Origin: an uncultured Candidatus Saccharibacteria bacterium | Lineage (GTDB): Bacteria > Patescibacteriota > Saccharimonadia > Saccharimonadales > Saccharimonadaceae | Assembly (NCBI GenBank): GCA_946538495.1 | Contig: CAMNGP010000005.1 | Location: 1-34,019, forward strand | Direction of reading: 5' to 3' | Length of the DNA stretch: 34,019 nt | Part shown: piece by piece, positions 18,646 through 20,067 of the stretch | How positions within the stretch are numbered: the first letter of the stretch is position 1 | Layout of the letters: every line of letters starts with the position of its first letter | Program-made: the position numbers and the translations under genes | The notes under the pieces: model-generated | Seen by the model: only the letters and a program-made list of their open reading frames with translations | Databases searched by the model: none | Told to the model about the DNA's origin: nothing

Positions 18646-20067
18646 TCACATCAAAGATTGCGCATAAAGCGCCAATTCTTCTTTTAAAAACCCATCTTCA
18701 AGCTTTTCCAGTTCTGCCATAAATCTTGGCGCCTGTCGTTTTAATCTTGCCTGGCGATAACTTTCATAAGATTCCATTTCCGATTCCGATAATGACTGTG
18801 GATAATTTCGACCCTTATAGTGCAGTAGCAACTCCGGCAATCTTGGGTCATGAAAATCAGGATGAAAGTCCGCCAGTTTGTTTAAATCGGCATTTCGTAC
18901 AGCAGCCACTTTTATTCTGTCGTTATCATTCAAGAATCCTTCATATAGCGCAACTTCTGGCTCAATTGCCTCGGGGAACTCTGGTCGGTTCTCGTACTCA
19001 CTTCGCATTTTTTCAGCAAACTCAGGATGCGCAAGCAAAGTCTGCAAATTCTTTTCGACTATTTCTTTCGAAAGTCCAATCTTCTCCCACCCGTTTTCAC
19101 TGTCTAATACCGATATCGGCGCCACCGCTGGGCACTTGTTATAGCATAATTCCTTAACAATTGGAAAGTAGGAAACGGAGCGGTCATGCACGGTGTGCTC
19201 TACGGGGCATGAAGACTTGGCCGGAGCAACCTGGAGCGTACCCGAAGGGCACGCTGCACGTGACCGCTCCGTTTCCCGCAAATCGTCAAGACCATATCTC
19301 AAATCAAATACCAAAACATTACCATTACGCCCAGTCGTTAGCGGAAAAGCCACTGTGGTTTTATTATGTTCCGATGAATATCTTCCCGAAGCATACACAA
19401 ACGGAGTTTTATTTTCAAGGTTTACTATTTTTTGCACATCTTTTTTGCCTCGAATTTTATACAAGAAGTCAAAAAGCTTCGGCTGCTTTTCCTTGATTAA
19501 TTTAGCCACCGCAATTGTCGCATATACATCCGACAACGCATCGTGCGCATGCTCATGCGCCACACCATTAAGTTTGGTAATTAATTCCAGTCGATTCGTT
19601 GCCCTACCATCCTCCGTAAAAGGCCATTCTATTCCTTCTGGCCTTAAGGCCCTAGTTAATCTCACCACATCCAGCATATCCCATCTCGATCGACCATCTT
19701 TCCATTCCCATTCATATGGATCATAAAAATTTCGCCACAGAATCGCTCGCATGAATTCATCATCAAATCGCACAGTATTATAACCCACCGCAATCGTTCC
19801 TGGCGTAAAAATCTCCTCCATAGCATATTTAACAAATTCTGCTTCGCTAATCCCATCCCTCAAAGTATCTTGTGGAGTAATTTTAGTCACATTAATCGCT
19901 CCTGGGCTAGGCAAAGCATCGTCAGTCATTTTAACTAAAACATTAACAGGTTCATCAATCGGCTCTAAATCTAGAGTAGTCCGCTGCCCCGCAAATTGCA
20001 TAATACGATCTTCACGCGCATTTAGCCCACTAGTTTCCAAATCATAAAAGAAAAAAATATTATCCAT
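18646..20067 (-). CDS. sbcB: Exodeoxyribonuclease I (DEDDh) with in-frame palindromic insert
   Basis: 473 residues from ATG 20067. The DEDDh exonuclease domain has D9 and E11 in FYDLETSG, the NTVRFDDEF motif matching the ExoI NNVRFDDE segment, and HAHDALSDV with the catalytic His and Asp. The C-terminal ExoI region has the conserved NKCPAVAP segment. It degrades single-stranded DNA 3' to 5' in recombination and mismatch repair. Residues about 264-299 are encoded by a GC-rich 106-bp element with terminal inverted repeats (19171-19276); they are Cys/Pro/Ser-rich, unlike the rest. The element falls in the variable linker between DLRYG and ELCYNKCP, so activity may survive. The start is set by a TATAAT box 6 nt upstream; the frame is open back to 20124 but that extension overlaps a terminator. 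Confidence 0.93.
   Translation of the reverse strand: MDNIFFFYDLETSGLNAREDRIMQFAGQRTTLDLEPIDEPVNVLVKMTDDALPSPGAINVTKITPQDTLRDGISEAEFVKYAMEEIFTPGTIAVGYNTVRFDDEFMRAILWRNFYDPYEWEWKDGRSRWDMLDVVRLTRALRPEGIEWPFTEDGRATNRLELITKLNGVAHEHAHDALSDVYATIAVAKLIKEKQPKLFDFLYKIRGKKDVQKIVNLENKTPFVYASGRYSSEHNKTTVAFPLTTGRNGNVLVFDLRYGLDDLRETERSRAACPSGTLQVAPAKSSCPVEHTVHDRSVSYFPIVKELCYNKCPAVAPISVLDSENGWEKIGLSKEIVEKNLQTLLAHPEFAEKMRSEYENRPEFPEAIEPEVALYEGFLNDNDRIKVAAVRNADLNKLADFHPDFHDPRLPELLLHYKGRNYPQSLSESEMESYESYRQARLKRQAPRFMAELEKLEDGFLKEELALYAQSLM
19171..19276. repeat. 106-bp palindromic element inserted in sbcB
   Basis: The ends are exact 16-bp inverted repeats: GGAAACGGAGCGGTCA at 19171-19186 and TGACCGCTCCGTTTCC at 19261-19276. 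Pairing continues imperfectly inward (TGCA and GTGTGC on the left with GCGTGC and TGCA on the right). The element is clearly richer in GC than the surrounding gene and is read in frame without stops. It has no room for a transposase. No second copy is visible in this window. Confidence 0.8.

Follow-up and report, generated by a model that had tools for sequence, protein, structure and literature searches.

A probably mobile family of small palindromes with a conserved centre and locus-specific arms in Saccharibacteria and Bifidobacterium

Results

We identified a 106-bp insert in the exonuclease I gene sbcB of an uncultured Saccharibacteria bacterium as probably being a copy of a small, non-autonomous mobile palindrome family in which the centre alone is conserved. 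We assign this reading, including the steps of the mechanism proposed below, a probability of roughly two thirds. The insert lies within the 34,019-nt stretch of DNA analysed as a whole (the window) and shows the following features:

18646 to 20067, minus strand: sbcB, encoding exonuclease I; the insert forms residues 264-299 in the linker before NKCPAVAP
19171 to 19276, minus strand by the orientation of the core, as for sbcB: whole palindromic element with perfect 16-bp arms; other copies in the same genome by DNA search and covariance model
19171 to 19186, strand not applicable: arm 1, site-specific, GGAAACGGAGCGGTCA, with imperfect pairing on to about 19192
19193 to 19254, minus strand: conserved family core of about 62 nt with three small hairpins, from the ungapped 49-copy alignment and pair counts
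19208 to 19239, minus strand: 32-nt kernel common to the Bifidobacterium copies, here ACGCTCCAGGTTGCTCCGGCCAAGTCTTCATG, the group consensuses being identical at 30/32 positions
19261 to 19276, strand not applicable: arm 2, site-specific, TGACCGCTCCGTTTCC

A sequence-only reading of this DNA had described exact 16-bp inverted repeats enclosing 106 bp in sbcB, with a composition unlike that of the gene and no stop in its frame, and our data bear out each of these statements. The repeat pair GGAAACGGAGCGGTCA/TGACCGCTCCGTTTCC is exact over 16 bp (19171-19186 and 19261-19276) and is the strongest in the whole 34-kb window, the chance expectation being about 6e-4 perfect 16-bp repeats per 34 kb at spacings of 30-110 nt, and the hairpin folds 7 SD below shuffled sequences. 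The GC content is 0.64 in the element versus 0.41 in the remaining sbcB. The element is translated without stop into residues 264-299, RETERSRAACPSGTLQVAPAKSSCPVEHTVHDRSVS, of a protein assigned as exonuclease I because of its Pfam domains RNase_T and Exonuc_X-T_C. Its length of 106 bp is not divisible by 3 and the frame is kept via neighbouring indels, as is generally found for genic copies, the lengths of which cover all three residues modulo 3. The AlphaFold2 model of SbcB has a mean pLDDT of 80.9 with residues 273-297 as the sole stretch below 50; the insert region is a predicted disordered linker. Comparison of SbcB homologues, as the sequence-only reading had proposed, revealed no ordinary conserved sequence at this place: the linker of other species has no sequence relation to this one and is for the most part shorter, and among 30 relatives it is hypervariable, several having short and unrelated linkers and others carrying this or other palindromic inserts.

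The element is not unique in its genome, which we examined through targeted stretches: the search for further copies advised by the same reading yielded seven beside the sbcB insert at the DNA level and 18 matches, the sbcB insert among them, with a covariance model built from an ungapped alignment of 49 copies. The centres of these copies agree and their ends differ, every copy having its own near-perfect inverted repeat. The 16-bp ends had been taken for the ends of the family, which turned out to be wrong: almost every locus has arms of its own and the copies have just the core in common, so that looking for identical ends elsewhere would not have succeeded.

All copies share a layout in which a conserved core of about 60 nt (with the kernel of 32 nt) lies within near-perfect inverted-repeat arms of about 19 bp. 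Full-type copies are composed of the first arm of about 19 bp, a 7-bp hairpin (CGTGYCC-TTC-GGRCACG), a 4-bp hairpin (GGCC..GGCC), AAGTCYTYA, a 5-bp hairpin and the second arm; shorter variants retain the 27-34 nt loop alone and have longer arms. The same core occurs at unrelated sites in either orientation. Across 96 full-type copies, 4.6% of the arm positions beyond the core edge are mismatched, and arms of different copies are identical at a mean of 4.4 of 14 positions. The left arm shows a weak purine-rich bias with G at the arm end, which stands against our best explanation.

Some copies show additional features. In alignment A3 (columns 11, 19, 54 and 61) the first and third small hairpins swap C-G to T-A together, as if both were copied from or bound by one thing. 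An intergenic copy on contig 10 of genome G047 (L032, about 1.5-1.8 kb) has its right half repeated behind it twice, in tandem and in degenerate form; at the orthologous site in the genome studied here (L006) there is a single copy with different arms. Intergenic copies of the latter genome (L007:1472-1589, also L006 and L008) contain, on one side or on both, TATAAT-like boxes in their arms or edges, an arrangement that looks like an inverted duplication of a promoter by the palindrome.

Fifty-seven of the 96 full-type copies lie in frame in genes, taken as open frames of at least 200 codons, a criterion that itself selects in-frame copies and thus leaves disruptive insertions uncounted. Thirty of them are oriented one way, mostly encoding ..ACPSDTLRAALAKSSCSAEH.., and 27 the other way, mostly encoding ..CSAEHKDLARAARSVSEGHA... 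Genic copies are read mainly in two reading frames; many intergenic copies have stops in all frames. The GC content of the arms is 0.53 in genic versus 0.32 in intergenic copies. Host genes include sbcB, tsaD, topA, uvrB, gatA, lepA, ksgA and ileS. Pfam domains span or flank the genic inserts, confirming as hosts UvrB, topoisomerase I, a GatA-type amidase, class I tRNA synthetase, leucyl-tRNA synthetase, KsgA, MnmA, CTP synthase, LepA, an FtsJ-like methylase, an aminotransferase, a glycosyltransferase, SbcB and TsaD. One MnmA-type gene (L206:49-1554) has two in-frame copies.

Of 30 TsaD loci examined, 25 carry a palindromic insert in one and the same position, and these inserts represent at least four core families. 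At the same kinds of gene sites, notably in TsaD, we observed at least three further in-frame palindromic insert families with other conserved centres (B: L102, L119, L075; C: L262, L276, L278; D: L267, L268, L270, L272). Three TsaD genes (L275, L282, L280) carry, in this linker, palindromes that are bare or nearly so and have no core; these may be what a core deletion left behind, or else represent the ancestral state.

At the covariance-model threshold used, the family is present in 98 of 174 genomes of the Saccharibacteria genus, and in a sample of the order one of 143 genera gave matches to the model. An exact 29-nt core pattern scanned over 84,980 species retrieved 70 stretches, 69 from Saccharibacteria, among them Ca. 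Nanosyncoccus alces of the same genus, and one from Bifidobacterium rousetti. The family is not limited to Saccharibacteria. Six exact copies of the kernel are present in the B. rousetti genome; of the 91 genomes in the Bifidobacterium genus, 43 contain the element, the assignment of these genomes to the genus resting on the B. rousetti record. All 49 of the 49 Bifidobacterium copies read have a near-fixed 32-nt core between site-specific arms of 28 bp on average; the core consensuses of both groups agree at 30 of 32 positions, and a second core subfamily, ACACTCAAGGCCGTTCGGCCAAGCTTACG, with site-specific arms is likewise present in both. In the order sample (Actinomycetales) 7 of 396 genomes match, all from the Bifidobacterium genus, and in the phylum sample the query genome alone matched, with none from other Actinomycetota genera. 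Pfam gave no support for genic placement in Bifidobacterium, so the copies are probably intergenic there. In B. rousetti (L111:7600-7850) two adjacent hairpins of two subfamilies lie directly behind a long ORF, presumably ribonucleotide reductase-like from reading its translation.

Rfam contains no match for the element, and no such family is described for Saccharibacteria or Bifidobacterium in the literature searched (subscription papers being outside its coverage). Collections of phages, plasmids and viral contigs contained no carrier, the one hit being a partial 25-nt match to a Streptomyces plasmid inside a transposase gene (E 0.03), and we rejected a phage or plasmid as carrier.

Orthologous empty sites lack both arms and core. 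At TsaD site 1 (L106 compared with L125/L017) the insert replaces about 6 nt; further comparisons were possible for L119 with L087/L091 and for L019 with L083. No clear target-site duplication, for which the sequence-only reading had suggested looking, was found in flanks and empty sites, the relatives being distant. Inverted target duplication, by which one arm would equal the host flank, was rejected as it is not seen at alignable empty sites. Cores at the same site are as distant as those of random pairs (median of 11 edits each). Core variants are shared within a genome more than by chance (12 pairs, P=0.0046) and not by site (2 of 28 informative same-site pairs), and as the variants track the genome and not the site, the sites are re-used. 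This core pattern putatively results from repeated insertion into a restricted number of linkers that tolerate it. At a given site, arms belonging to different core families are alike to a marginal degree only, for which reason strong arm homology across families was rejected. A Y1 transposase is absent from the genome studied and from nearly all element-rich ones, 7 of 170 genomes being over the cut-off, and was rejected as mobiliser; the analysis found no mobilising enzyme. No recent insertion event was seen because most genomes are MAGs and the relatives are distant.

Homologous arms (same site, same core family) show 60 column changes on both arms with pairing kept versus 44 other changes, counts that are not independent because the pair comparisons overlap. 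In two TsaD genes with flanks 88.6% identical, a 3-nt indel is matched in both arms. Among 53 same-site pairs, 12 have cores in opposite orientations. Template switching homogenises arms and inverts spacers (PMC8604942), and both marks of inverted repeats maintained in this way, arms changing together and spacer inversion, are found here. Two old orthologous pairs (L018/L134 and L004/L016) have arms that changed little, and never in a paired manner, so the arms are not always fast-drifting. In mRNA sense, genic arm mismatches beyond the core edge comprise 29 A-C versus 12 G-U, and this excess disfavours selection for an mRNA hairpin.

Discussion

We propose a mechanism according to which a host or element enzyme would insert the unit upon recognising its core, probably in folded single-stranded form. 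Insertions in genes would survive only at flexible linkers tolerating about 33 extra residues, which would explain why the same linkers are hit repeatedly by different subfamilies. The hairpin at a replication fork may then provoke template switching, whereby one arm is copied onto the other; this would keep the palindrome near-perfect while its sequence drifts, and occasionally flip the core. The family may have crossed between Bifidobacterium and the Saccharibacteria genus by horizontal transfer. A more far-reaching version, which we put forward tentatively and hold to be somewhat doubtful, is that transposition or upkeep rewrites both arms together, the loop being inherited as sequence and the stem as shape, and that such a family moves between Saccharibacteria and Bifidobacterium, loading the same essential-protein linkers time and again.

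Near-identical cores with unrelated arms inside one genome, and the slow in-place arm change in the two orthologous pairs, would also be expected if the mobile unit were the core and new arms were made at each insertion as an inverted copy of some template; arm differences would then reflect separate insertions and no drift. We regard this as rather unlikely, since both arms are missing from the empty sites that can be aligned, clear relatedness and co-variation are seen between the arms of homologous sites that hold the same core family, and left arms have a weak positional bias in common. Strong folds and covariation, together with about 40% of the copies being intergenic and several adjoining promoter-like boxes, suit a structured RNA with a hairpin kept by transcript selection for regulation, processing or stability. 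This explanation is improbable given the occurrence of both orientations inside genes, a mismatch spectrum (A-C 29, G-U 12) opposite to the preference of RNA selection, the lack of an Rfam match and the fact that nearly half of the genus is without the element at the threshold used.

As the element is a hairpin in essential genes, it might be an intervening sequence cut from RNA or bypassed in translation, like the yeast mitochondrial byp elements. Genic copies are, however, stop-free in frame, mainly in two frames and with frame-restoring indels, and it is many of the intergenic copies that do have stops in all frames, making such a role very improbable. The hypervariability of the linker in all relatives would fit an ordinary variable linker or an assembly artefact, to which we give practically no weight: many independent assemblies contain the same core, in unrelated genes as well as between genes, and the named-strain records of Ca. 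Nanosyncoccus alces G3_2 and Bifidobacterium rousetti RST9 carry it.

A mobile palindrome family with a conserved centre would take protein-coding palindromes outside Rickettsiales and to a far larger scale, into housekeeping genes of very small genomes. Its locus-specific yet always paired arms would constitute a natural record of bacterial template switching at dozens of independent sites, and a search for a shared mobilising enzyme is now possible. Bifidobacterium belongs to the Actinobacteria, as do the known hosts of Saccharibacteria; the sharing of the family by these two and no other sampled group points to DNA exchange of an epibiont lineage with Actinobacteria.

Rickettsia palindromic elements (RPE) and their Wolbachia counterparts are hairpins of about 100-150 bp found intergenically and in frame in conserved genes, where they are tolerated, their mobiliser being unknown (PMC2229807). 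The sequence-only reading had stressed this resemblance. It holds for behaviour, the present family also consisting of multi-copy palindromic hairpins of 100-150 bp that are mobile and tolerated in frame in conserved genes (57 of 96 copies) as well as intergenically. It does not hold for sequence: no relation was found, the 29-nt core pattern scanned over 84,980 species having no match in Rickettsia. RPE copies moreover share family sequence, whereas the arms here are unshared (4.4 of 14 positions). As reported in PMC6649704, Rickettsia elements lose palindrome identity over time; in contrast, the arms here stay paired and the family spans two phyla. This source also describes coding palindromes in Nematomorpha mitochondria with site-specific perfect inverted repeats and co-evolving arms, for which template switching was proposed. 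Site-specific coding inverted repeats with arms evolving together are seen here too; its abstract and discussion describe no shared mobile core for the Nematomorpha palindromes, which are mitochondrial and have both arms encoding conserved protein regions (PMC6649704).

Our family resembles bacterial MITEs (ERIC, Correia/NEMIS, RUP) in being small, non-autonomous, palindromic and sometimes in frame. MITEs have terminal repeats conserved across a family, usually with target-site duplications, whereas the ends here are not conserved, the arms of different copies are unrelated and the flanks show no general duplication, as far as the distant relatives allow this to be seen. It shares with REP/RAYT systems small hairpins with a conserved recognition part; REP stems are conserved, and the Y1 transposase is absent from the genome studied and found in very few genomes of the genus. 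We read the family as a new variant among protein-coding palindromic repeats, RPE-like in behaviour but no RPE.
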